The notes under the pieces: generated by a model
What the model saw: only the letters and a program-made list of their open reading frames with translations
The model's database searches: none
Told to the model about the DNA's origin: nothing
Shown here: one piece after another, positions 2,856 to 56,738 of the stretch
Layout of the letters: the number at the start of each line of letters is the position of its first letter
How positions within the stretch are numbered: the stretch's first letter is position 1
From: Chytridium lagenaria
Taxonomy: Eukaryota > Chytridiomycota > Chytridiomycetes > Chytridiales > Chytridiaceae
DNA: 64,000 nt
Reading direction: 5' to 3'
Assembly (NCBI GenBank): GCA_025449115.1
Contig: JAHLKC010000012.1
Coordinates: 248,001 to 312,000 of the forward strand
Translations under genes and position numbers: made by a program

Positions 2856-3027
2856 ATAATCTGAATATATGACTTGAGATTCCAGGTGGACTTCAATGTT
2901 ACACAGCGTCCGGACTAGTTCGGACACTGCGAAGCATTGAAGTCGGCGGAGATGGGAATATGGGCAGATTGCCCATTTTCTTCCATCACAACTGCATCTT
3001 CAGTGCAGTCCTCCTCTCGTCGTTTTT
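2856..3027 (+). repeat. Element 1 split direct repeat A1 (172 bp)
   Basis: Matches A2 at 8640-8811 over its whole length by eye. It contains a long imperfect palindrome (2890-2943): outer arms ACTTCAATG and CATTGAAGT, inner arms GTCCG and CGGAC. The copy begins 9 bp after the symplekin stop codon. Confidence 0.93.
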
Positions 3028-3055
3028 TATCGGACACTACGCTTCCTCGCTCCTA

Positions 3056-4640
3056 ATGGCTGCTGCCCTTCCTCCCCTGGACCCCAACACGACTACTTAC
3101 GACGGCACTCTCCTTAGTGCTTTCCAGTATCGTAACCTTCGAAACGTCGCTCTAGCTTTGGGCATGGTACCTCCCCTCCCTAACTCTCTCCTGACCCTGT
3201 TGCCAAACGTTATGGCTTACCTTTCAGCTATTGACCCTCGTCCGGCTATGGACCCTCATACTTTGTTGGTAGCTTTCGGTGGCCCAAATGACCGCAATGG
3301 TGAGGGTCAAGCTGGTGCGAACGGTGATGGCGGCCCTGGCGGACAGAACGTTAACAATCAGGACCAGGAAATCTTGGGCAACAACCACAATGCTAACAAT
3401 GGCAACGGAGCAGACCCCGCTGCTCCCGTCGAAAATGCAGTTGTTCTTCATGCAGGCAACCTCGACAACGGTGAAGAAGACGTCCGCCGACAGCTCCAAG
3501 CCCGCATCGAGTTCCTTGAGAATCAAAACCGTTTAACGGCTGCGCAACTCTCTGTTGCTATGCGTTCCGGCACTACTCGCGTTCCTCTCTATCCCGCTCC
3601 GGCTTCCGCCTTGGATCTCGGCCAGTTTCTCGTTGACGCTGACCGGCTTGACGACCCCCTGTTACCTGTAAGTTCCTATTTCATCTCTGTCTTTCCCTTT
3701 TCTTCCTTTTTTCACGAGTCTTTCAACTCCGGGCAAGCTTTTCCACCATTCCACGGGATGACGGTAGCAACACCCATTTATTCTTTTCATTTTTCATATC
3801 ATCCCATTCTTGCTTTCTTCCTTCCCTTTTTCTATTTGATCTTTTCCAGACGACCGTCTGCCTCTGGACCCCGGTCCTCCTTTCCTACTATTGTTTGGAC
3901 GACTGTCTTCCTTTCTTCACGACGTTCGTCGCCCTCGCATTTTATTCTGGACGACCGTCCCTACCACCTGGACAGCTGTCCTCCTACCTCCACGTGATTC
4001 CCATCATGTTTTCCAACCAACCTAATAACTTTATGTCTTTCATAGGACATTTCCATCTATGTCTCGCTTGGCGGGTTTTCCGTAACGAGGCCACCATGTT
4101 TACTCGCCATGACATGGGTACTCCTGCCTGGTCCACCACCCGAGAGGCGCTGTTCCACCACCTTAACCGTATCCGCCAAATCGGTGTGGAGTGCCGTTGT
4201 CTTTCTCCTGCCAGATTGACGCCTGGGAAACCCTCAGCTCCGGCAATTATTTTCGTCTTCCCGACGACTCCTTCCCTTCAAATTGGAAGTTACCGCCCTC
4301 CTCGACGTCCTAGGTTGGTACATGCCAAGTCCAAACGCCAGCCTCATCACGACAAAGGTCGCCGCTGTTCAACGCCGCCTTGGTGAGACAGTCCGTATGA
4401 CAGCTCACCTTAAAACCCAGCGCCGTACTGAACCCCAACCCTCCTCATCTTCATCCCGTCCCTATGACCGTCCCACCCCTCACCCAACCTTCAAACAAAG
4501 AACCGTCCTCGTAAGGAACACACTTGTGGTCATTGCCATGCTAAGGGCCACTTTGGCCACACCTGTACCCAGCCTTGCCAGAAGGCCAGCCCCACCAGTG
4601 ACCTTTGTGTGCGTAACAAATGTCCTTCTTAGCTTTCCTT
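3056..4640 (+). CDS. Element 1 ORF1, gag-like protein with CCHC zinc knuckle (intron, frameshifted)
   Basis: Presumed nucleocapsid-like protein of element 1. The chosen ATG is at 3056, just past A1. The first exon codes a Gly/Asn-rich linker and a short coiled stretch (RRQLQARIEFLENQNRL), ending LDLGQFLVDADRLDDPLLP. A GTAAGT donor follows at 3668 and a TTTCATAG acceptor ends at 4045, giving a probable 378-nt intron. Downstream, in another frame, is a zinc knuckle with spacing C-x2-C-x4-H-x4-C (CGHCHAKGHFGHTC, 4525-4566). At least two frame changes between 4045 and 4525 prevent a single ORF. Element 2 has a related ORF1 with an intron at the same place relative to a shared GQ motif. Confidence 0.65.
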
Positions 4641-4734
4641 TTCATTCCCTAGTTCTTTCCAAAGCATTTATTAATAAACGCTTCCTCCTTACCAACTGTG
4701 TTCTCCTTTCACCTCTGTGGTTCCTTTTAGCTTC

Positions 4735-6900
4735 CGACACCGTCTCACTGGTGTTCAGTTTCCGGTGAACCCACCTTACCTCCTTCACGGCCGGCGTTGG
4801 CTTCCCTCCTCCAGGATATTCTATCCGGCTCTCGTCACCTCACTCCATCGGATATTTCCTTCCCACACCCCGACTACTTTGTCGCCGGCTGTGTTAACGC
4901 CAATACCTTACCCATGTGGGAGGAAATACTGGCATATTCTCCTACCAAAGAAGCCTCTACCATTACACGCTGGATTACCGAAGGTATTCGCGTCGAGGAA
5001 TTCATGGTTCCTTTTACTGGCTACCACCGCGGTCTCCCTTATTCCAGCGACACTCCCCCTCGCGGCCTCGCTCCTTGTATCCGGTTCACCACAATTGCTG
5101 CCTTCGTTGAGACCTCCACACGCAAGGACATCCTCTCTGGTGCACGCCGCATTCTGGGCCCTGTCTCCGATGGTTTCCCACCTTCTCTCCACATGGTTTC
5201 CCCTATTCTCATTGAACCTACAAAACCACGCAAGTGCGACGATTGCACCCTTCTCAATTGCTGGATGCAACCTCCTAAGTTTACGATGGAAGGCCTCCTC
5301 TCCCTTACATATTGGGAATCCCACCGCGCAGCCGTCATCGATATTGCTAGTTGTTTTAATAACATTCCCCTCCATCCTTCCAGTTACAAGTACTTTGGTA
5401 CTATAGCTGTCCTGGATGGAGTTCCTCATTACCTCGTCGCCACCGTCTTAGTTTTCGGCTGGTCCCCCTCGCCCTACATTACTCAAACGTTAGCAACGGC
5501 GTTAACTCGATTTATACGCGCTTGGCACATACCAGTTGTCATTTGGATTGATGACGCAGCGCTAGCTCCCAGCACCACGGCTTCCTGCTCCACTTCTTGT
5601 GCTGCCGCAGACTCCGTAACAGCTTGGTGCCTCCTTTGCATCCTCACGGGCTACTTCATTTCTTTATCCAAGTCCATCTTTCTCGCCGACCCCTTTTTGC
5701 TTTCTGGGCTTGAATGTTGACCTCCATTCACGCACTTTCTCTATTCCGTCAGACAAGCAACAAGTTTTCTTATCTCTCGTTACAACAATCCTCTCGCGTC
5801 CCATGGTCCACCTCTCTGTTTTGGAACGCTTCGCAGGAAAATGCGCGCACCTCTCTACCATAACCCAGGAGGGCTCTCTTCACCCGCCAACTTTACATCG
5901 CCATCTCCAATTCTCGCCGCCACCTTAATCGAAACAAGAAATCCACTTCTCTTATCCACCTGACCCCACCAATCCTTGACGAAGTTCACTTGTGGGCTTC
6001 CATCGTCGAACAAAATTCTCCGTACCTCTGGGCTACCTCTGCCCACCGAGTAATAACGATTCGCACCGACGCTAGCAATACTCGGTGGGGTGGTCATCTT
6101 TTTCAGTCAGCTCCCCTTGCTCAACTACCCACCTCTTCAAAAATCCCTGCCTTCCTTCCTTCTCCTCTTGACCTCCAAGCTGGCGGTGACCTTGACGTGG
6201 ACCTCCTGGCGGCTGCCGGTGCTTCCATAAATCTCCGCGAAGCCGTTGCCTGCTATAATTCACTCGTCGCTTTCACTCCGCACCTGCAGCGTTGTTTTGT
6301 TGACGTTTACGTTTCGCCGGACCTCAATCGTGCTTTGCTCTCCCCTACTTCCCGCGATTGGCTCAATATTGGCGTCGATAACGAAGGTCTTTATAAGGCT
6401 CTCGTTAAAGGTTTTCACGCTCTTCTCCCATCAATAACGAGATCCGTAAGATTTTCACCCTTTGCCAGTCCTTGGCATCCGCGCTCGATTCCATCACATC
6501 CCTGGGGTCGAGAACATTGAGGCAGATGCTATTTCCCGTGAAGACCCTTCAGCCGATTTTGCTCTCCTCCCTCACATCTTTCACCGCATTTCAACCCGCC
6601 ATGGCCCTTTTACCATCGACGCCATGGCTACCCTGGTTTCCCACCAAGTCCCGCGATTCCTTTCCCGTTATCTTGCCCTGGTGGCCGGCACTAACTTTCT
6701 TGCTTGGAAACCTGACCTTCATTCACCACCTGAAAACCTCTACATTTTTCCCCCTTTCTGTATGCTTGTTCCACCATACACCACCTTTTATCTTTACGCC
6801 TCACTTTTACCATAGTGGTTCCCCGCCTTTTTGAGTCCTGGTACCCCGTTTTATCAGCTGCCGCAACGGAAAGTTGGTTATTAGGTTCAAAGGGCGACTT
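4735..6900 (+). CDS. Element 1 pol: reverse transcriptase and RNase H (frameshifted)
   Basis: Copies the element RNA into DNA. RT signatures: PTKPRKCDDCTLLNCW (about 5218-5265), motif A VIDIASCFNNIPLHP (about 5334-5378), the motif B region VFGWSPSPYITQTLATAL, and motif C VIWIDDAAL with the catalytic GATGAC at 5550-5555 (IDD in place of the usual YxDD). RNase H follows with TDASNTRWGG (about 6064), an INLREAVACYNSL glutamate segment (about 6226) and the final EADAISRED (about 6518). Behind it is the DIRS-type extension GPFTIDAMATLVSHQVPRF. No protease or DDE integrase is seen. The frame changes near 5718, 5930 and 6450. The family is clear; whether it is active cannot be judged. Confidence 0.85.
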
Positions 6901-7110
6901 CATGCTCCGCGGGATACTGCCGCACGGCCCGCACCCTCACCACTTTACCTTTACCTTATGATTTTATAGTTTTTCACGTGGCCATTAACCACCCTCTCAC
7001 TATATTCTTCCTTTTACATTTGCGTTTTAAATATATTAGACTGTACACAAGTTTATTCACCACTTTCCTTTTCCTGCCTCCTTTGTTCTAACATTCCTCT
7101 CATTCAGACC

Positions 7111-8504
7111 GGGGCCGTTCTTCGCACATGCCACCGCTGTGCTTCCTCCATTCACCCCAACCACTTATTTTGTCCCCAGTGCGGCGCTCAGGTTGTTACT
7201 CCCGTCGCTTCCTTTCCTCCCTCCATTGACCAAGGCTATTTAACTGAACGACGCAACGCGTTTGCGTCCTCCCTTGCTCTCCTTCCCAAGGTTCTCCTCA
7301 AGATAAGGCGGTATCCGCTTTCTCTGCTTTCCTCTCCTCCCTCATACCGCCAGTCGATTTAACTACCGCCAATCCCTCCCTGGTTGTTGATTACCTTATT
7401 TCCAAGGACGTTTCGGCGAACACACAATATCACCACCTCGATTGTCCCCACAAAGGTATCGCCTTAGCACAAAGGCGTACCTTTGTTCGCTGTCCGGCAC
7501 TTACCTGCCCTTCGCCAACCCGTTGCCCGCACCGTCTTTCCGAATCCCACGCAAAGCTTCTTTGTCCCATTCGCGCTGCTCCAACCTCAATCCAAAATCA
7601 CATTAGTCTGCTCAAAACTGGTTTACAATCTGCAGGTTGGACCGACCCTGGTCTCCCTTGACCTCTCCGGGAACCCTGCTGATTCCTCCATGGTCCGTTC
7701 GTACCTGGAGTTCCTACAACGTGAAGGACAAACAGCTCTTTTGTCTCCAGTGCAAGCTACTCCAGTTTTCCCTGAGAAACTCGCTGTCGCCCTTTCTTAC
7801 TGGTCTTCCATTGCGGCCCAAGCCCGACGTTCCCGCTCCGATCGTTCAACTCCTCGCTTCACCCGCTTAGTCGCTCTTCAGAACGTGGCATTTTGCCTCC
7901 TTACATCCGAGGCCGGTTATCGTGGTTCCGACATTGACCGGCTTGACCCTAACGCTATCACTTGGCTCCCGGATGGTAATGGAATCCATATATCCTTGTA
8001 TTCCGGGAAAACCATCAAAGCTGGCATGGTCGAACGCATAATTCTTCGTCCCGGTCCCACTCAGTCAACGTGCGTTATCCATGCATTACGCGAATATGCT
8101 ATTGAATCCCGCACCATGGGCTATCCGCTTCTCGACGGCCGTTACGTCTTTCCGTCCATCACGCCCGTTTCCTATGACCCCAACTCCACCATCTCCTACC
8201 CGGTCATGCAACAACGTTTTGCCACCGCTTTACGTGCACGACGTTGCTACATCAACGAAACCCTCCATGGCCTTCGCGTTGCATCAGCCATTTCGGCAGT
8301 TGTGACTGATGATGGCATATCCGCGGCGATGGCCACCGGCCATTGGCGCTCTCCTGCCACCGCGCCCGATATTCTCAATTGGCTCGCGCGGTTACGCCAC
8401 AATCCCGCATCACCGCCATTAACTGGCAACGCGCTTTGTTAAAATGGCGTACCGATCTTCCTGCCTTTTTCTTTTTTAGTACTCTCTATTTTGTACCTCA
8501 ATAA
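7111..8504 (+). CDS. Element 1 tyrosine recombinase (integrase of DIRS/Ngaro type)
   Basis: Integrates the circular element DNA. The catalytic domain shows the first Arg in GYRGSDID (about 7918), the HxxR box in LHGLRVASA (about 8263), and GHW (about 8338). After a one-base shift at GCGCCC (about 8363-8370) the frame continues as ARYSQLA, giving the nucleophilic Tyr, and runs to a TAA at 8502-8504 that overlaps an AATAAA. Upstream is a Cys/His cluster C-x15-C-x4-C-x5-C-x12-C (7431-7565) that is conserved in element 2, and a small zinc-ribbon-like CHRC...CPQC near 7120-7180 that is not. Another frameshift lies near 7650-7680. The start is uncertain; an acceptor-like CATTCAG ends at about 7110. 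Confidence 0.85.
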
Positions 8505-8571
8505 ACACCTTCATTATAAGCATTGGGACTTTTGCTCACCAGCACTCTTCTACTTTCTTCCCCTAAGCACT

Positions 8572-8642
8572 GGCTTTAGACTTACTGCTCGCTGGAAGTC
8601 CCGCTTATTTCCCATAGCTGAATCGTCAACATTATAGTCATA
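8572..8642 (+). repeat. Element 1 split direct repeat B1 (71 bp)
   Basis: Matches B2 (9040-9110) with about three mismatches. It runs directly into A2 and shares the three bases ATA (8640-8642), the likely core where recombination joins the two element ends. Confidence 0.92.
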
Positions 8643-8811
8643 ATCTGAATATATGACTTGAGATTCCAGGTGGACTTCAATGTTACACAGCGTCCGGACT
8701 AGTTCGGACACTGCGAAGCATTGAAGTCGGCGGAGATGGGAATATGGGCAGATTGCCCATTTTCTTCCATCACAACTGCATCTTCAGTGCAGTCCTCCTC
8801 TCGTCGTTTTT
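8640..8811 (+). repeat. Element 1 split direct repeat A2 (172 bp)
   Basis: Second copy of A1. It carries the same palindrome (8674-8727). It lies between B1 and the tRNA-like segment. Confidence 0.93.
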
Positions 8812-8962
8812 CACCACCCACCCTCCTGTCCTCCTCTATTCTTTTACGCAACTTACTATATCCATTTTACGTGCCCCCACACCGTCTTCCTTTCTTTTCA
8901 CCATTTCGTTAATTCTTTATTTTCATTTTATTTATTTTCTTTCCTATATTTTCTATGTTACA

Positions 8963-9015
8963 CACCACACTGTGACTTTCAGCCCCAGGTTCAATTCCTG
9001 GCAGCCGGTGTGGTG
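8963..9015 (+). ncRNA. Element 1 tRNA-like hairpin with T-loop and Pol III B-box match
   Basis: Closing stem CACCACAC (8963-8970) with GTGTGGTG (9008-9015), 8 bp. Inside it is a T-arm-like hairpin: CCAGG, loop TTCAATT, CCTGG (8985-9001). The hairpin includes GGTTCAATTCC (8988-8998), which fits the B box GGTTCRANNCC. No D-arm, anticodon arm or clear A box is seen, so it is not an ordinary tRNA gene. It lies between A2 and B2, the same place as the fold in element 2. Expression is not shown. Confidence 0.5.
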
Positions 9016-9039
9016 GGGTTTATCCGCGGATCCGCTTCG

Positions 9040-9110
9040 GGCTTTAGACTTACTGCCCGCTGCGAGTCCCGCTTATTTCCCATAGCTGAATCGTCAACAT
9101 TATAGTCATA
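9040..9110 (+). repeat. Element 1 split direct repeat B2 (71 bp), right end of element
   Basis: Matches B1 with about three mismatches and ends ...TATAGTCATA at the right boundary. Seipin starts 128 bp downstream. Confidence 0.92.
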
Positions 9111-47894: not shown

Positions 47895-49820
47895 TTAATC
47901 CAATTCCCACATCGACACCCGCTTTCGACTGGACCTAATTTTAATCACGCTTTTCCGTTTCTTGCGATCGGTTCCTGGTGTACTTCCTTGGGGACTTGCG
48001 ATTAGAGTTGGTGCCGGAGGGTCCAGGGAGTCCCAGTCTATGTCTTTGAAAGATTCTAGTGATGTTCGATGCCGAGGAGTTTCGGAGTTGGGTCTGCTAT
48101 GGCGAGAGGGTGACCAGGGACATTTGCGCGGGGTTAGACTGTATGAGGATGTGATGGCTTGGGAAGGCGACGTAGGTTGTGGCTGGGATGTGGGCAATAC
48201 TTTAGGGACGTCCAATAGGAATGGGTTATCATCATCTACGGAAGGTGAAGACACCTGAGACCCTTTTAGTCAACGCGGTAAAAAAAATATGTTTACGTTT
48301 GAAATGACTGATGATTCCTGGGACGTTCTTCTCTTATCGTGAAACACGCTAGGTCCTCTAAGCCGAACAGTGAGGGCTAAGCTCTTTTTCAATTTCTCCT
48401 TCTCCGATTCCATCTTATTTAAGACAGGTTTTGTTATTCTTTCCCTCCGTTTTGCAGAAGGGCTTTTAAGACTGCTTCCCGATCGCGATTTCTTTGTCCT
48501 GTCTAAGCCTTCCTCGACCCGAGATTCAAACAAAGAAGATGCCTTGCGATGTTGAAGAGAGCTTGCCGATGACGATGATTTTCTTTCGGGGATCGTGCTC
48601 GTAGACGACGATTTCCTTAGCGGTACAGCCCCAGTAAACGAGGTTGTTGTAACAACGCGACGAGCCAAAGCTTTAAAACTCGTAGTTTTTGCTACATTTC
48701 GTTTCGTCAGTTTCGTTTCAGTTTTGCTCTTCGAGGAGCCTCCAAGCCTCTTCCCACCCATTCCGATTCCCTTTGAAAGCGTGTCTGTAAATGGCTTTTT
48801 GCTAAAAGATGTATCTGGTGATGATGGTTCAGAGTCTTCGTCGACTCCTAAGGCGTTGTTGATGACAGACCAGGCTTCAGAAGGGATTGTGGAATGGCTG
48901 AAAGATAGTGAGAACAACGTCCTGTGAACTTCTTCCTACTATGTTGATCTTAGAAGGTTGATGAATTGAGTTAAAGCGAGTATTTTAAATGAAGAAGAAT
49001 TTGCAGGCAAATGGGGTATTAAATCTTGTATGCATAGGTATTCCATAAAACCTTGCAAAGTTGATAACAGAGTGTCGCTTTCCGCGTCCATTTTCAAGAT
49101 TGACGGTCCAACAAGAACTTCCATAAGATCAGGTATTCGGCCATTTTCTCTTGAATACGCATTAAGGTCACCTTCTCTCTCCATAGAGATAATCTCCATC
49201 AAGATCACAATTTGAAGATGGGCTCTACATAAAATCAGAGAAGACTTGATCAAACTCTCTTACTCAAGTGTTTTAAGGCCTCTCAGATTTTGATTTCTGA
49301 TGTTCTTTGAAGCTGGTTCACCTCTCGCATCCATCATAATTCGGTTTAATTCCATTTGGTATTCGAATCCATCATCTGCAGCAATGGCTACGTCTACACT
49401 TTGTGTCGCCAAAACACGATCAGCGATGGTGGCATGCTTAGTCTCAAAACCCTTTTGACTAATCAACAAGCCTTGATATGATAACGCCTAAGACAGTAAG
49501 CATTGTTAGTCTACCAATACCTTACCAAGGACTTCGATATTCGCGTTTGCCATTGAAGTTTTGGGATGGTTGCTTTTGAGAGAATGTCTGTAAAGAGTGG
49601 CAATAGCTGCTGCCGTAGATCTCGGATACCCCTGGAGAGGAAAGCTTCTACTCCCTTATGGCAACGACGATGTGGGTCAGTCCACGGTGACAGTCCCCCA
49701 GATGACGGCCACACTCACCGTGTTGAGGAGAGCATTGTTGTAGGAAAGCCGCAGAAGGTCTTGGACAGATTGATTTGAGAAATCGGACATTCCAAAAACT
49801 TGTGCAGATGTGTGCGACAT
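47895..49820 (-). CDS. Possible Sld3/Treslin-like replication initiation factor
   Basis: The ATG at 49820 opens MSHTSAQVFGMSDFSNQS, spliced near 49719 to GVEAFLSRGIRDLRQQLLPL. Further exons give a helical region and, at about 49180-49250, the segment LCRAHLQIVILMEIISMERE, which resembles the xxLQLQIxLLLExLxL helix of fungal Sld3 and animal Treslin; DLMEVLVGPSILKMDAESDT follows. The C-terminal half (48254-48917 and 47895-48254) is basic and Ser-rich with many potential CDK/DDK-type sites, which also fits Sld3. The evidence is a single weak motif plus overall shape, so treat the name as a hypothesis. Retroelement 2 lies 10 bp upstream of the start codon. Confidence 0.35.
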
Positions 49821-49829
49821 GACAATTTT

Positions 49830-49869
49830 TGCCTATACACTACGGTTCAGTAGTGGAGAAAACACCTCA
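49830..49869 (-). repeat. Element 2 repeat B2 (40 bp), 3' end of element
   Basis: Identical by eye to B1 at 50165-50204. It contains a small hairpin: CACTAC, loop GGTTCA, GTAGTG. Confidence 0.9.
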
Positions 49870-49874
49870 ACCAC

Positions 49875-49898
49875 GCCCTGAGTCACCCGACTCAGGGC
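49875..49898 (-). repeat. Perfect 10-bp hairpin next to B2
   Basis: GCCCTGAGTC (49875-49884), loop ACCC, GACTCAGGGC (49889-49898). It is strong and GC-rich, and could be a terminator, a recombinase-binding arm or an RNA 3' structure of the element. Confidence 0.6.
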
Positions 49899-49918
49899 AC
49901 GGCGAGGATGTAATCTTG

Positions 49919-50002
49919 CCACCCGCGCCAGGAGGAATCGAACCTCCTGGGAACCAATCGATATGGGGCTAGAAGAAAAACGTGAGATTGGTTAGCGGGT
50001 GG
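49919..50002 (-). ncRNA. Element 2 tRNA-like three-way junction with T-loop and Pol III B box
   Basis: On the minus strand three perfect 8-bp stems form a cloverleaf without a D-arm: closing stem CCACCCGC / GCGGGTGG (50002-49995 with 49926-49919), second arm AACCAATC / GATTGGTT (49993-49986 with 49959-49952, loop 26 nt), and a T-arm CCAGGAGG, loop TTCGATT, CCTCCTGG (49950-49928). Single bases link the stems. GGTTCGATTCC (49944-49934) is a perfect B-box match. It lies between A2 and B2. It is not a normal tRNA because there is no D-arm or standard anticodon loop. Confidence 0.6.
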
Positions 50003-50017
50003 GCGGAGGTGGGAGGG

Positions 50018-50164
50018 CGACAAACGCTGCTGTGCGTATTGTCGAAAAGAGGAAGAAAATGTGATACTGTCCCATAAACTGCTCGTCTACAATAAAAACC
50101 TATCCAAAAAATTCTCCGAGAATTTTGTGTGACGTGGTTTTTATTTCTGTGTCACGGCAGTTTA
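50018..50164 (-). repeat. Element 2 split direct repeat A2 (147 bp)
   Basis: Matches A1 (56592-56738) by eye over 147 bp. It holds a palindrome AAAATTCTC-C-GAGAATTTT. Confidence 0.92.
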
Positions 50165-50204
50165 TGCCTATACACTACGGTTCAGTAGTGGAGAAAACAC
50201 CTCA
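50165..50204 (-). repeat. Element 2 split direct repeat B1 (40 bp)
   Basis: Directly abuts A2; same sequence as B2 (49830-49869). Confidence 0.9.
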
Positions 50205-50343
50205 GCCGTGCCCCGGAGTCGACGACGCCTCCAAAACTGAAAACCCGAGGCGACGGAAGGCACGGTGAACATTGAGGAAAAAAGGGAAAAAATCCGAAAA
50301 GAGAAGACGAGCAACATGAAATAACATAAGACATGCCAGACGG

Positions 50344-51909
50344 CTACAACAAGTGTGAAGACCACGTGGCAATACCACGCGCTGTGCAGAATGCAAACTC
50401 GGCATAATCTCTCAACCAAGAAGATAAGACTGATAGAGATGACGTGTTAGGGGGAAGGTGGGCAATTGCTGAGGAAAGAAGAGAATACCGGGCCGCGGTA
50501 TCAGCTGAAGCCCAACCCCCCTTCTGCATCGTAGCCGTGATGGCTTCAGCAGAGAGGCGTGTGGTGATGGCCGCGGCAACGCGGGTTCCAGCGAGAGAGC
50601 TGAACGGGACGCCCGCCGAGGAGAAGATTGGGCGTAGCCGTGAATTGGCCGAAGAGACCGATAGGTTCCGTTTGGTACAAATCGATTTGTTGGAGATAGC
50701 CGGGAAGAAATATGGAGAACCCGAGAGTGGGTGACCCAGGAAAGAGGACTCACGAGCGTAAAGAAGGAGTGCCAAAACTGGGCATGCCGCTGGCGAGGTG
50801 GAGCATAAGACCGGCACCCTATGAACCAAACCCATAGCGGATCGTGTCTTATGTTCACTAAAGATGAGCATGACGCCGGCATGAGAAGGGAGAGACCAGA
50901 CCCCCGCCGGTGGAAGGCGGACGAGATCACCCGCCCGGCGGCCGGAGGCTGCAGCGGTGAGTAAAAGTGCCCGTAGTTGGAGGAGGGCTAAACGACGGAA
51001 AGGTGATTCTGGATCACGTTGACGGGCGAAGGTGTTGGCGTCCTGTAAAAGGAGGTCTGCCACAACCTGAGTGGTGTTGGAAAAGACTGGGGTCGCTTGG
51101 ACGGGCATAACAAAGGCCTGCGCAGCTTCCCAGGAGATGATGTCTAAAAAATCATCCACCACTGGGGAGTCCGTGGGGTTCCGCGATGACGAGCTGTCTG
51201 AAGACCAAGGGTCCACGAAACCGGAGGCGTGGAAGGCCGTCTTGAGGCGGCTGCGGGCTGTTCGTAGGGCCTCCGGGGCTGCACGGACTGGACATATCGT
51301 GGGGTCGTATGGAACGCGAGCGTGAGGACACGTCTCCGGTGAAGAGCAAGTAGATGGTGTGCATGTGGAAATTGAGCGAGAGCGAGATGAAGCTGAGCCG
51401 GCGTGGGGGCAACCGCGCTGGTGATATTGGGTAGAAGCCTCGTGGTCCTTGTCGATCAAGTAACGAATGACGTGGGAGGGAGTAGCTGAATACCACGGGA
51501 TAGGATGGCGACAACGTGAAAGGAACGTGTTAAACCGGCGTAACTCAGCCTCCCTGTCCCGAAATTTAGGTAAAGAAGAACGGAACGCGGTCAAAGCTGT
51601 AAGTCGAGAAGTGATATAATCTTCATTGACAGGCTTGAATAAGGGAACAACGGTCAGAGAAAAGGTGGAGACAAAATAGGCTACACTAAGGAAAAAGGAA
51701 GAGTGTGAAAATGTACTAAGAAGAAGGAGAGGAGAAATCACACAAGAATGCCTTAAGAGTACAAGATAGAGCAATTGGTTGAATAGATTTTGACGCAGTA
51801 TTATAACCAGAGATAACGTCACTGTCCCCGCGGTGGCCCAACAACAAAGAGTCCTTAATATACGGGATAAGAGGAGGGAACCATGAGTCCCAGCGAAGGG
51901 GAAGAACAA
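50344..51909 (-). CDS. Element 2 tyrosine recombinase
   Basis: An uninterrupted frame of 521 codons; the real start is probably inside it, near residue 85-95, after an intron. The catalytic region has SGRRAGDLVRLPP (first Arg), a Lys in KTRSAMGLVHR, LAGTRVAAAIT (the HxxR box with the His replaced by Ala), GGW and the Tyr in TAARYSLLS. The N-terminal part carries the Cys/His cluster shared with element 1: Cys at residues 167, 183, 188, 194 and 206 (51292-51423). The domain is clear. The missing His may reduce activity, although family members vary at this position. Confidence 0.88.
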   Translation of the reverse strand: MFFPFAGTHGSLLLSRILRTLCCWATAGTVTLSLVIILRQNLFNQLLYLVLLRHSCVISPLLLLSTFSHSSFFLSVAYFVSTFSLTVVPLFKPVNEDYITSRLTALTAFRSSLPKFRDREAELRRFNTFLSRCRHPIPWYSATPSHVIRYLIDKDHEASTQYHQRGCPHAGSASSRSRSISTCTPSTCSSPETCPHARVPYDPTICPVRAAPEALRTARSRLKTAFHASGFVDPWSSDSSSSRNPTDSPVVDDFLDIISWEAAQAFVMPVQATPVFSNTTQVVADLLLQDANTFARQRDPESPFRRLALLQLRALLLTAAASGRRAGDLVRLPPAGVWSLPSHAGVMLIFSEHKTRSAMGLVHRVPVLCSTSPAACPVLALLLYARESSFLGHPLSGSPYFFPAISNKSICTKRNLSVSSANSRLRPIFSSAGVPFSSLAGTRVAAAITTRLSAEAITATMQKGGWASADTAARYSLLSSAIAHLPPNTSSLSVLSSWLRDYAEFAFCTARGIATWSSHLL

Positions 51910-53980
51910 TAACTGCCACCACGCGTAGAGAACGCAAATGATTGAGAACCGAAGGAATCATCGGAAAAGGGGGGTAAAGGTATAAGACAGGGTCCGGAAA
52001 AAAGACAGGAGGAGACCAGGAGAGAAAATTGGTCGTAATGGCCTCGGGGTCGAAATATCGAGAGATGAAGTCGCGACAGCGCCGGTTATGGCGCGAAGCC
52101 ATGCCGTCAATATCAAACGGTCCCCACAAGTGAGAAAAGCGAGCGAAAGCCGCATCGGAAATGCGATAATCGCCGGAGCAATCTTCGCGGGAGATGGTGT
52201 CTGCCTCTGTGTTGAGCTTGCCGGGTATGTGGTGGAAACGAAGAATGACATTATGGAAACGGGCAAGACGCCAAATACGCTGAAGGATAGAATTCAAGAG
52301 AGGAGAGCGGGAAGAACCCTTGGAAAGCGCGAGAAAGAGGCCCATATTGTCCACGCCCGAATCCACCCAACAAGGAGGGGGTTTGGGCTGCCAGTGCCTC
52401 CTGGAGACCGAGGTTCTGAACTGACACGTCAATCCATCGGCGTTCTAATGAAGGAAGAAGGCGGGAAAGAGAATTGGCGCATGCCAGAGCCTCGCGGATA
52501 TTTATGGAGATACCGGCGGAAGGAAGGAAATCAGGACCGAAGTCATCCCCGACTCTAGTATCCGGGATACCGAGGGCTGAGTGAAGAATGCCACCCCAAC
52601 GAAAATCACTGGCGTCAGTGTGGATGCACGCGTGAGATGGTTGGAGCCAGAAGGAAGAGTATTCGCGAGGGTCTGGGAGGCCCACACGGAGCCATTCGTG
52701 GAACTCCATCTCCAACTCGGGTGATAAAGGAATGAAGTGGTGATGAGAGCGTCTGGCGAGAGCGATGGAGAGGTACATAGAGCGAGTAAAGGATAGACCC
52801 CCAGGGAGGATTAGAAGAAAAATGTGCGCATTTACCCGCAATGCGTTCCAACAAGGACAAAGGTATTTGGTTGGATGAGAGGGCCGAGTTGACCAAGACC
52901 AGAAACGACGAACGCTTAACCTCAGGAATGATAAAACGCGGAAACGAAATCGATGATGAAGCCCAGGTAGAGAGGGTTACTGACAGGGATTGGGCGTGAT
53001 TTTGACAAGGAGAGAATGAAGCCCGAAAGAACGAGGAGAAGACAGAAGATGGAAACGCTCTCGTGGGTACGAGTCGAATGAGAAAAGCGAATGCGACGGG
53101 ATCTGGGACCAATGATGAAGTCATCATGTATACTTGAGAAGGAATGGACCAGGAACGAGCGTAAAGTACAATGGCGTTGACTAGGGTTTGACAAACGAAA
53201 GGAGATGGGGACCATCCAAATACCAGGACTGTGGCCAGAAGGAAGTATTCGATACCGTCCTCCAAGATTGCGGCGGGTGCCGAAGTATTTGCGGGAGGAT
53301 GGGTGAAGAGGAATATTCATAAAGGCCGATTTCAAGTCGATAACTGACGCACATGTGGAATCCCACGAAGTAAGCGAGGTAATCCCTTCCAACGAGAAAT
53401 GTGGAGGGGCCATCCACAGATTGAGAAAGTACAGTCGTCGAATTTCCTTGGTTTTGAAGGCTCCAAACCCGTAGGAGAAACGATATAGGGAGTGTACGTC
53501 GAGGAATTTGTAGGACCGAGAACGATGCGGGTACCATTCGCAATCTCGTCCATGGTGGCCTTAGTAATAAAGGATAGCTCTGGAGATTTGAACTTGGGGT
53601 TGCAAAAAACCTTCTTTGGTGGAAAGAGAAGAATCGTAAAATCTGTTGCGGTGGAGACCCTTGAAAGGACGGAAGAAAGACTCGATCCTGACCCCATGTT
53701 CGACCCAGGATAGGATGGATGAAGCTATGTCTGGGGGAGAGGCGGCCGTGATGCGGCGCCAGAAGTCCAAGCGGGAAGAGTTTACGCATCCTGCGACGAA
53801 GGAGTCGGAAGAGGGGAAGGAAATGTCGGAGAGTGAAGGTATATGCGTGCCCTTGAGGGCGTCATCCAACAAGGCCTCCATCGCAGGGAAAGACGGGACT
53901 GGACGGGGGGTGCCGTCAAAGGAGCACCATGCCGAAGGGAAGGGAGGCATGGTAAAAGATACTGATGGAGTAAAAAACAA
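51716..53980 (-). CDS. Element 2 pol: reverse transcriptase and RNase H (frameshifted)
   Basis: The N-terminal linker begins MPPFPSAWCSFDGTPRPVPS (about 53950). RT motif A is VIDLKSAFMNIPLHP (about 53300-53345). Motif C is split by a frameshift: VYM in one frame and DDFIIGP in the next (about 53115-53140), which together imply a Y-x-D-D box. RNase H is seen in IHTDASDFRWGG (about 52590-52625), INIREALACANSLSR (about 52460-52505) and NTEADTISRED (about 52180-52215), followed by the DIRS-type extension GPFDIDGMASRHNRRCRDF. At least five frame changes occur. The strongest similarity to element 1 pol is in the linker, motif A and the RNase H end. Confidence 0.82.
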
Positions 53981-54252
53981 GAATTTTCACCCATAAACAA
54001 ATTATATTTCTGACACACAACTCGAGCGCCGGGATATCGACATGGTGGAATCCTTTCGGCTATATCAACGGAGAATAAAAGAAAAAGTATACGACAGGAA
54101 AGCCAAGGAGGCTGTAAAGATAAGACCGTATAACCGAAAAATACGGAACAAACGGATAAGAACATAGACTGGTAGGGTAAAAGAGGACGAGAAAGGGAGC
54201 CATAGAAAAGGGCAAGACAATGTAATGAGCTAAGTAAACCCAGAAATAGAGG

Positions 54253-56531
54253 TCAACGACGAGGGGGAGAATAATGACGATCATCGCGAGGACGAGAAGA
54301 TGAGCCCTTGTCACGGGAACGATCGTCGGACCTATCATTGCGGTCACCGCCCCGCGAGCGAGAATGCTGTGGCTGAGAGTCCCGACGGTCATATCTGTCA
54401 TATCGGTCAGGCTGGGAAGGGAAACGGCCTGATCGGCCTACGTAGCGGGGGGAGTAATTAGATGTCGACGAATGAGAGCCCCGCCGTGACGACGAAAATC
54501 TGTTGCCACTCGTATTGTTGAACGAATGTGCCGCGGAGAACCGTGGACATGAACGAAGACCACAGTAGCGGCGACCACAAGGAAGCTGACAGTCCTCATA
54601 CACATGATCGTCAGAGGAGGAGCAATGGCGGCAAAAGGGGCGTTTGTCTGAAGAGGAAGCGGATGAAGCCGAAATACCCAAAGAACGCAAATCCTTGGAT
54701 CGTGAGAGAGCCAAATCATCAGCGAGTTGGCGAGCCGAAACCACAGACGGGTCAATTTGACCCACTTTAAGGACGGATGCGAAGTAATGCACAAGTTGGG
54801 TAGTCGTACAATGCGACAGGGTGGTAGAAATAGTTTGGGCGAGTTGCGCGCAATTCGTGATGCGGCGAGGAGTGATTAAATCGGCACCTGGAAGTCCGTG
54901 GGAGGTGGTCATTGATTGCATGTGCGAATGGAGGGAGAGCAATTTGGATGACAAAGCCTTCGGAGAAGAGAAGGAACTTCCAGCCGGAACGCCAATCGGG
55001 TTTAAGAGAGCTGCCCCGTGCTCTGCTAAAAGGTCACGAAGGACGTGTGCGAACATGCCCGCTGGAGCCGTGGGCGGGAGGCTCTGATGGAGCGAAGTAT
55101 TAGCCGCTGAGAAACGAAGCGGAACGCCAAAATTTTACTAAGAAGGTGGGAATTGAACCACGAGCCCTCCTCAAAGGTAAGCAGGAAAGCGGAGAGCCCA
55201 AGGACAGAGACGTGTCGAGGGGAGACCAAAATTTGAGACCAAGCAGAGATGGGAATGAAAAGAGAGCCCGAAATGGCACACGATAGAAAGCAAGAGCAGC
55301 AAAAGGAACGACCAACGCATGGAGCGGGAAATAAGGCGGAGGCGCCAAAAACGAAGAAGATACGAATGATCCTTAGTAGAAAGATGAAGACGTAGGGAAA
55401 GCCTGCACAAGATGAAGAAACGCAAGACCAAAAGAGTGGAGTCCATGACCAGAACGCGCTTGTACCAAGGAGGGGAAGAAGCCTGACTGTAGAAAGGGAA
55501 GGCAAAGAGACAACGAGAGAGGCCAAAGGCAGAGGGAAAAGAAAGAAAGGCAAAAGAAGAAAGGTCTATGAATCCCTTCCCAGAGGGAAGGGAGAACCTT
55601 AACACATCCTCTGTTTGGGAAGGCCTCAAAAAGAATGGAGGGACAAAAAAATATTGAGCGCGGAACACACCTGAAGGATTGTACACGACAAAGGCTCATC
55701 ATAAAGGTGTTGGCCAATATCAAGGAGAGGGTCAACCGAGTGGGAGGGAGCCGGAGATGGAGTCGCAGGGACCGTAGGAGCTGCCGGGGGAACTAAAGAG
55801 CCTTGGAAAGCAGCCAGGATGGAACGCAAAAGGGATTCTGTGGACGCGGGAGGTGTGGCTGGAGCCTGCGCTGTGGCGCCGGAAGGCGGAGGGATGACCG
55901 GAGGAGCGCCAGCAGGAAGAGGGACCCCAGACAACGCGGCGGGTAAAGGAACCAAAACCGGAGGAAGGGTAGCGATTTGAGGTGGGGCCTGGGAAGACGA
56001 AGGACCTGAAGGGTTTGGAATGTGAAAAGATTGGGTAGACGATGGAACCGGAGGAAGAGTCCGAGAAGGGGGAACCAGAAGGAGGGACCGCAGAGGAAGA
56101 AGGCAAAACCATGGGACGATTCAATGATAAAGGGAAATTCGAGGAAGAAAGGCGGGCCGGCGGTGGAAGTTCCCCATCCTCCCAGGAGCGGGGGTCGCGA
56201 AAGAGGGTGTAGAAGAAGAAGAGGACGACGAAGAAGAAGATGGAAGAGAAACCATAAGGGACTCGAGGGGGAAGTCCCACGAGCCTTCCGGAGAAAGCGC
56301 TGGACGAGGGAGAGACTGGAGTGCTGAAAGGAGACGGGGAACCAAGGTAAGTTTGTTCCCAGAAGAGCTGTGGCCAAGAGCACTGAGAGCTTGCTTCAGG
56401 GCGGTGTTAGACATAGCATCCAAGGAGACCAGGTCCACTGAGACGTTCGGGGAAGTGAAAGAAGGGTTCGATGGATCCTCCGAGGAAGGAGGAGTAGAAG
56501 AACGAAGGGAGGGAGTAAGAGGACGGGACAT
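54253..56531 (-). CDS. Element 2 ORF1: gag-like protein with SAP motif and Cys/His knuckle
   Basis: The ATG at 56531 begins MSRPLTPSLRSSTPPSSEDP; a SAP-like DNA-binding motif follows (LDAMSNTALKQALSALGH, SGNKLTLVPRLLSAL; about 56315-56425). A Pro/Ser/Ala-rich linker ends DIGQHLYDEPLSCTILQ, then a GTGTGTT donor at 55670. The acceptor is near 55107 or 55138, an intron of about 530-560 nt at the same position as in element 1. The second exon gives an all-helical region and a Cys/His stretch FCRHCSSSDDHVYEDCQLPC (about 54610-54670), ending in an Arg/Asp/Ser-rich tail at 54253. One frame change lies near 56100. Confidence 0.7.
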
Positions 56532-56591
56532 AGGGAAAAGAAAGAGAGAAGGAGGGTGGGGATGAGGTGTTCAGACGAGCCGTGGGAGAAT

Positions 56592-56738
56592 CGACAAACG
56601 CTGCTGTGCGTATTGTCGAAAAGAGGAAGAAAATGTGATACTGTCCCATAAACTGCTCGTCTACAATAAAAACCTATCCAAAAAATTCTCCGAGAATTTT
56701 GTGTGACGTGGTTTTTATTTCTGTGTCACGGCAGTTTA
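56592..56738 (-). repeat. Element 2 split direct repeat A1 (147 bp), 5' end of element
   Basis: Same sequence as A2 (50018-50164). Its outermost bases read TAA in the minus direction and act as stop codon for the upstream NSE1-like gene. Confidence 0.92.

Follow-up and report, generated by a model that had tools for sequence, protein, structure and literature searches.

The window, that is, the whole 64,000-nt stretch of Chytridium lagenaria DNA that was analysed, carries on its minus strand a YR retrotransposon of ~6.9 kb (49823..56738), delimited by self-BLAST repeats, a YR ORF and an RT-like fragment and arranged as A1-ORFs-B1A2-B2 with split direct repeats. Repeats A1 (56582..56738) and A2 (50009..50164) are 98% identical over 157 nt. 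Repeat B1 (50158..50213) overlaps the start of A2 by 7 nt and is 91% identical over 56 nt to repeat B2 (49823..49878), which forms the 3' end of the element. The tyrosine recombinase ORF of 521 aa lies at 50344..51909 and has similarity to the ALOG domain; at 24.3 bits it falls just under the Pfam cut-off of 26.6, while the domain is above the cut-off in the YR relatives L032 and L034, the former with a Phage_integrase match under its cut-off. RVT_1 reaches 17.7 bits in the RT-like fragment, also under the Pfam cut-off. The element is a YR retrotransposon with split direct repeats, a tyrosine recombinase and an RT.

It stands among the Ngaro, PAT and VIPER YR retrotransposons, which share its A1-ORFs-B1A2-B2 layout, tyrosine recombinase and RT. 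The original prediction had named a DIRS/Ngaro element, and of this the YR retrotransposon with A1, B1A2 and B2 stood; weak Dam/MT-like matches under the cut-off in two families (E 0.08; E 0.0011) leave both Ngaro and PAT-like as assignments, and a Dam-like domain was not found in L032. With the best 7,991 candidates scored, the only protein relative reported came from the chytrid Blyttiomyces sp. JEL0837, at 41% across 77% of the query. Two scans of viral_contigs returned no relatives. A second YR retrotransposon occupies 2856-9110 on the plus strand, with A1 at 2856-3027, A2 at 8640-8811, B1 at 8572-8642 and B2 at 9040-9110 by self-BLAST, and with an RVT_1 score of 29.1, just under the cut-off of 29.6. 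No difference separates the 172 nt of its A1 from those of A2, which suggests that it inserted recently, yet the YR frame is broken into two pieces (7302-7652 and 7660-8406).

The gap between A2 and B2 of the minus-strand element measures 130 nt, of which 84 nt (49919..50002, minus strand) are taken up by a tRNA-like module, supported by folding, by other copies and by other families, and the remainder mostly by hairpin 2. This second hairpin (49866..49908, limits approximate, minus strand) is predicted between the module and B2, extends into B2, and has counterparts at the equivalent place in other families. Within B2 there is a short terminal hairpin (49838-49855) with the loop TGAACC on the minus strand. 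The self-BLAST repeats and the position of the YR ORF bear out the earlier placement of the fold between A2 and B2, outside the coding region.

Read on the minus strand, the closing stem pairs 50002-49995 with 49926-49919 (8 bp, CCACCCGC/GCGGGTGG), the second arm pairs 49993-49986 with 49959-49952 (8 bp, AACCAATC/GATTGGTT) around a loop of 26 nt (49985-49960), and the T-stem pairs 49950-49943 with 49935-49928 (8 bp, CCAGGAGG/CCTCCTGG). Single bases join the parts in the order closing stem, T, second arm, C, T-arm, C, closing stem. The T-loop TTCGATT (49942-49936) lies between CCAGGAGG and CCTCCTGG, and a B box, GGTTCGATTCC, covers 49944-49934 with 0 mismatches, in agreement with the perfect Pol III B box first reported in the T-arm. 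Folding reproduced the three perfect 8-bp stems of the original prediction, with a minimum free energy of -36.5 kcal/mol against a dinucleotide-shuffle mean of -19.76 (sd 2.86; z -5.85; 0/200 shuffles as stable). A tRNA-type T-loop had a probability of 1.0 in the folding model for this copy. An alternative strand at the A2 end, within 50009-50040 on the minus strand (TTTGTCGCCC), can pair with 49917-49926 (GGGTGGCAAG, minus strand); this pairing would compete with the closing stem, and a shorter version of it is present in L003 and L004.

The 84-nt query returned five genome matches including the window itself, three of them full, one starting from base 5 and one from base 29. When L001-L004 were compared, variable columns made up 3/48 of the stems and 18/27 of the arm loop (Fisher p 4e-8), with 2/7 in the T-loop, 0/3 in the joints, 2/85 downstream and 10/19 upstream, the last count including row ends and gaps. 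The second arm forms 8/8 pairs in L001, L002 and L004 and 7/8 in L003; the closing stem is damaged in L004. Another copy, L005 (G000:C141:20184-23238), is a 3' fragment without the 5' half, its similarity beginning inside the arm loop of the module. As counterparts of the second arm, L059/L064 and L066 have only different hairpins. The second arm and the exact three-way junction belong mainly to the window family, and what other families have in common with it is the T-arm with its B box and an acceptor-like stem.

The distribution of this common part was assessed among the YR elements of the genome. The window YR protein had 78 matching pieces, and one stretch was taken downstream of each further YR locus among them, giving 34 stretches. 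A strict search for a TTCRANN loop closed by 4 or more perfect pairs was positive in 15/34. A detector combining T-arm and closing stem, its thresholds fixed after the families had been seen and its first pairs required by construction, was positive in 23/34, with ~0.4 expected (20 matches in 2.56 Mb of shuffled window). Three stretches with imperfect T-arms missed by the detector (L066, L071 and L072) were added by eye, which brought the total to 26/34. The stretches lacking a module were L056, L069, L075, L078, L079, L082, L086 and L088; in L082 a deletion reaches into the T-arm. Among the 26 stretches with two B-type loops, the detector found the module in 22, a figure that rises to 24 with L066 and L072, and the remaining two are L069 and L082. 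Conversely, L068 and L071 have a T-arm without two recognisable B loops. Stretch L069 (G000:C213:13800-15300) retains both B loops and hairpin 2, and its T-arm and near strand are gone, apparently deleted.

The module holds a regular place within these element ends. It is followed at near-constant distance by hairpin 2 and then by the terminal hairpin of B2, and its orientation is that of the element's own genes. The terminal CTGAA loop lies 80-90 nt after the T-loop in 25 of 26 copies measured, L068 having none. Two family-derived patterns gave 12 and 15 matches genome-wide, with 0 for reversed controls, and 27/27 of these lay in such element ends: 25 inside the 34 stretches, and two (C61 and C125) followed by hairpin 2 and a B-type loop. 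The second element of the window carries a module as well (8877..9015, plus strand), with a far strand at 8877-8884, a near strand at 8963-8972, a B box at 8988-8998 enclosing the T-loop at 8990-8996, and a 3' strand at 9006-9015. The A1/A2 identities of 98% in the first element and 100% in the second suggest recent movement of module-carrying elements. In stretch L074 (G000:C109:32700-34200) two modules stand in tandem, at ~501 and 918 on the sense-turned strand, and B-type loops number three, an arrangement that would be expected if the end of one element lay inside or beside that of another. A T-arm of tRNA type and an acceptor-like stem make up the module that is conserved across YR-retrotransposon families of one genome, and the notion that it might be a random host tRNA fragment found in a single copy fails, as other copies and families carry it.

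The acceptor-like stem forms, in most families, between an upstream strand and the bases that follow the T-arm, and the letters of the upstream strand differ: CCACCCGC in F1, CTGGCTACC in F3/F4, CTCACCACACCG in F5b, TTGCCTGCC in F6b, CCTAGCACCATCC in F7, CCTAGCTCCACTT in F8, CCTAGCAC in F9 and a 16-nt strand in F10 (F1-F10 are groups by module similarity, not by tree). F2 forms the stem only with one T-T mismatch, and L061 offers no convincing far strand. When 5' regions were dealt to the 3' regions of other families, using 9 of 13 tabulated representatives with one per family group, pairing fell from the observed sum of 90.0 to a permuted mean of 66.9 (sd 5.0), and 90.0 was reached in 1/100,000. 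Shuffled upstream regions gave a pairing mean of 63.7 and, among 300 shuffles, a maximum of 74.0. Many pairings across families nevertheless reach 7-10, and the F9 5' region attains 13.5 with that at the 3' side of F10, which is purine-rich. The far region alone (10 of 12 representatives) scored 96.5 vs 70.6, with 0/20,000 permutations as high, the best match in F1 being the alternative strand that overlaps A2 and not the closing stem. For the near region alone the values were 65.0 vs 57.9, with 721/20,000 permutations, and the near stem was accordingly set aside as the main stem, being weaker than the far stem in permutation.

Where strands could be aligned, five double compensatory changes were found, two between F7 and F8, two between F4 and F6b and one between F4 and F2. 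Nine sequences of F2-F5 were aligned over 12 pairs, with L061, L062 and unalignable families excluded. In this alignment 99.1% of cells pair vs 31-46% when the strands are slid; its covariation score was matched by 6/500 shuffles and its count of double-change pairs (2) by 185/500. MAFFT family alignments misplaced some rows. The acceptor-like stems contain 6 G-U and 0 A-C pairs, a count that is uninformative on strand because the search that picked the strands allowed G-U and excluded A-C; the putative sense strand was instead assigned from the T-loop motif and the gene direction. The anticipated conservation and covariation were seen for the closing or acceptor-like stem and the T-stem, and the second arm showed conservation within its family and no compensatory change. 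The RNA structure itself is very probably under selection.

We also compared the module with the features of tRNA. A TTCRANY T-loop is present in 24/26 tabulated copies and TTTAACT in the other two; all 26 begin the T-stem with two G-C pairs, which mostly reflects the criteria by which copies were selected. In L058 and L067 the C56 position is occupied by T. The 7-nt T-loop (closing pair 53-61) had a probability of at least 0.5 in 19/31 sequences in short context, 19/31 in long context and 24/31 in at least one. It failed in both contexts in L057, L062, L063, L066 (0.0), L072, L076 and L087, whose C and G runs permit shifted registers or other pairs; in some families the T-arm is therefore supported by its conserved letters to a greater degree than by predicted folding. 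By our own count, T-stem and acceptor comprise 5+7 pairs, as in tRNA, in F2 (with its mismatch), F3, F4 and F6b, 8+8 pairs in the window family, which thus departs from the 12-pair criterion of tRNA, and ~19-21 in F7, F8 and F10. A D-arm was not found, and the arm loop of L001-L004 contains no GG that could serve as elbow guanines. A tRNA-like module in a YR retrotransposon, as first claimed, was upheld by the T-arm and acceptor-like stem present with compensatory changes in other copies and families. To call it a D-armless tRNA was an overstatement, given an arm loop without GG for the T-loop and a stacked helix of 8+8 instead of 5+7.

Several known identities were examined and rejected. ARAGORN reported 0 tRNA genes in the window. 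Rfam gave no match at gathering in the window and none within the module even at E<=5, and its two chance-level matches within 49700-50350 both fell outside the module; a ribozyme was rejected on this ground. A host tRNA gene or fragment was likewise rejected, as both searches were negative and the window copy has no more than 11 consecutive nt in common with 22 host tRNAs, those of the B box itself. Complementarity to host tRNA 3' ends, sampled with representatives of 12 families against those 22 tRNAs, which are part of the host set, reached 6-9 nt vs shuffled maxima of 9-13. These runs speak against a host tRNA primer-binding site of the LTR type, and the suggestion that a host tRNA annealed at the module primes reverse transcription was not borne out. 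A spliceosomal 3' splice site was considered from the pyrimidines and TAG of the arm loop and the TTTCAG before the T-stem in F2-F6; it was rejected because in F7, F8 and F10 the TTCA at that place precedes C or T, so that the motif is unconserved.

If the conserved letters acted as DNA, TFIIIC could bind the double-stranded B box as a promoter part or chromatin site and the RNA fold would be secondary. The B box has 0-1 mismatch in 26/26 copies measured, and in 8/26 a T run begins 18-24 nt past the first 3' base of the T-stem. However, the best A box match upstream had 2-4 mismatches vs shuffled means of 2.8-4.2, and the first T run is inconsistently placed, 18 to 121 nt away, and the 152 nt read in each of L058 and L067 contain no T run. 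A complete Pol III gene was rejected for its missing A box, and Pol III recruitment through a full internal promoter, which had been proposed, is disfavoured because no A box beats shuffles and no terminator is consistent. The compensatory changes of the acceptor-like stem would also be unexplained by a DNA site, L058 and L067 carry T at C56, and we regard the DNA explanation as improbable. Still less credible, and in our view highly improbable, is that the module is a passive relic of an ancestral captured tRNA fragment with no present role. Runs of 8-14 nt are indeed shared with host tRNAs around the T-arm, most often with tRNA-Gly(GCC), but in the window copy the 11-nt match is the B box alone, variation is far greater in the arm loop than in the stems, and families with different stem letters retain the pairing; the relic is disfavoured because of these compensatory changes. 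Processing of the RNA is a stronger contender, if still an unlikely one: RNase P and/or RNase Z would cut a long transcript at the T-arm/acceptor helix and give it a defined end, as in mascRNA and menRNA. The available part of PMC11693755 describes those RNAs as tail-end RNAs that are not tRNAs but mimic them by a T-arm and acceptor stem, like the module, and both enzymes as recognising the elbow and measuring distance from it; a C-to-U change in the mascRNA T-loop, as in L058/L067, had only a minor folding effect there. The T-arm beside an acceptor-like stem and the tRNA-type 5+7 pairs of F2 (mismatched), F3, F4 and F6b fit such cleavage. In contrast to mascRNA, as described in that part, whose D-type stem-loop has two elbow guanines, none were found in the YR module, and most YR families depart from the 12-bp geometry. 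Judged by helix length, an elbow-measuring RNase P or Z fits those four families and not that of the window, as the tRNA ruler is not kept at 8+8 or at ~19-21 pairs.

To our knowledge, how YR retrotransposons begin reverse transcription and close their circle is unsolved. We tentatively favour a cis-acting genomic-RNA signal that starts or organises both steps, and put its chances somewhat below even. The T-arm/acceptor helix would pass for a tRNA, either with the reverse-transcriptase/Gag particle that the element itself encodes or with a borrowed host tRNA-binding protein. Such recognition could mark the RNA as template, determine where first-strand cDNA begins close to the 3' end, and hold the RNA 3' end so that B1A2 might act as a circle-closing splint. 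We count for this signal the position between A2 and B2, the spread, the kept pairing, the slow stems, the specificity of the patterns, the A1/A2 identity and the analogy with retroplasmid and HIV-1 RNA described below; we count against it that the module lies ~100-150 nt from the element 3' end and not at the terminus, that the 7-nt T-loop is predicted with a probability of at least 0.5 in only 19/31 copies, that helix lengths differ between families, that L069 keeps B1/B2 without a module and L082 has a deletion into the T-arm, and that complementarity to host tRNA 3' ends does not exceed shuffles. These observations would fit a role in packaging, export or stability as well as one in reverse transcription. 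Near and far strands competing for one 3' strand might also form a conformational switch, for example between translation or packaging and reverse transcription. Both partners are present in F3, F4, F5, F6b, F7, F8 and F10, and minimum-energy folds within F7 differ, being of the near type in L060 and L074 and of the far type in L076, L083 and L087. Against this, the near pairing is weak in permutation when taken alone and F1 and F9 have no near strand, and a switch seems to us as improbable as the DNA site. The signal reading can be taken further: the T-arm/acceptor RNA between A2 and B2 would be a replication signal by which YR retrotransposons specifically mimic tRNA. It would bring in the reverse-transcriptase particle, replace the tRNA primer of LTR elements and time cDNA start and circle closing by near/far switching. 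We regard this fuller version as unlikely.

With its conserved pairing and fixed position, the module offers a defined target for work on cDNA and circle formation. If the cis-acting signal is the true reading, another class of retroelement copies tRNA features in its genomic RNA, namely the T-arm. Related arrangements are known. The available part of PMC11014452 describes a retroplasmid reverse transcriptase that initiates at a 3' tRNA-like structure; mitochondrial retroplasmid RNA resembles the module in having such a structure near the 3' end of a retroelement RNA, whereas the module is internal (A2-B2), showed no CCA end at the RNA terminus and belongs to a nuclear YR retrotransposon. In HIV-1, according to the accessible portion of PMC8191761, the PBS segment folds into a three-way junction that contains a tRNA-like element and supports reverse transcription, which was lowered when the junction was broken. 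Segment and module are alike in that retroelement genomic RNA forms a three-way junction, one arm of which mimics tRNA; unlike that segment, the module mimics the T-arm, sits 3' and not 5', and has no PBS that we found. Term look-ups in six papers on YR retrotransposons (PMC3783388, PMC4157794, PMC6681497, PMC8547959, PMC9210276 and PMC3266345) brought up neither tRNA nor hairpins nor secondary structure, and a search of the literature, mostly papers open without subscription, found no tRNA-like element or RNA signal of YR/DIRS retrotransposons. Two chytrid genomes are given as without detectable YR elements in the part of PMC3783388 available; unlike these, the Chytridium lagenaria genome has them.

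Two further motifs were observed in these element ends. In most families a C-rich motif, CCCACCCACC or CCCACCNCC, stands right before the acceptor-like strand and is G-rich on the cDNA strand; in the window it covers the A2 end and just beyond, at about 50005-50020 on the minus strand. Between the YR gene and B1, L056, L071, L079, L086 and L088 have AATAAA followed by the motif AGCATTGG, which is perhaps a poly(A) site for a protein-coding RNA ending ahead of B1, separate from the longer genomic RNA.
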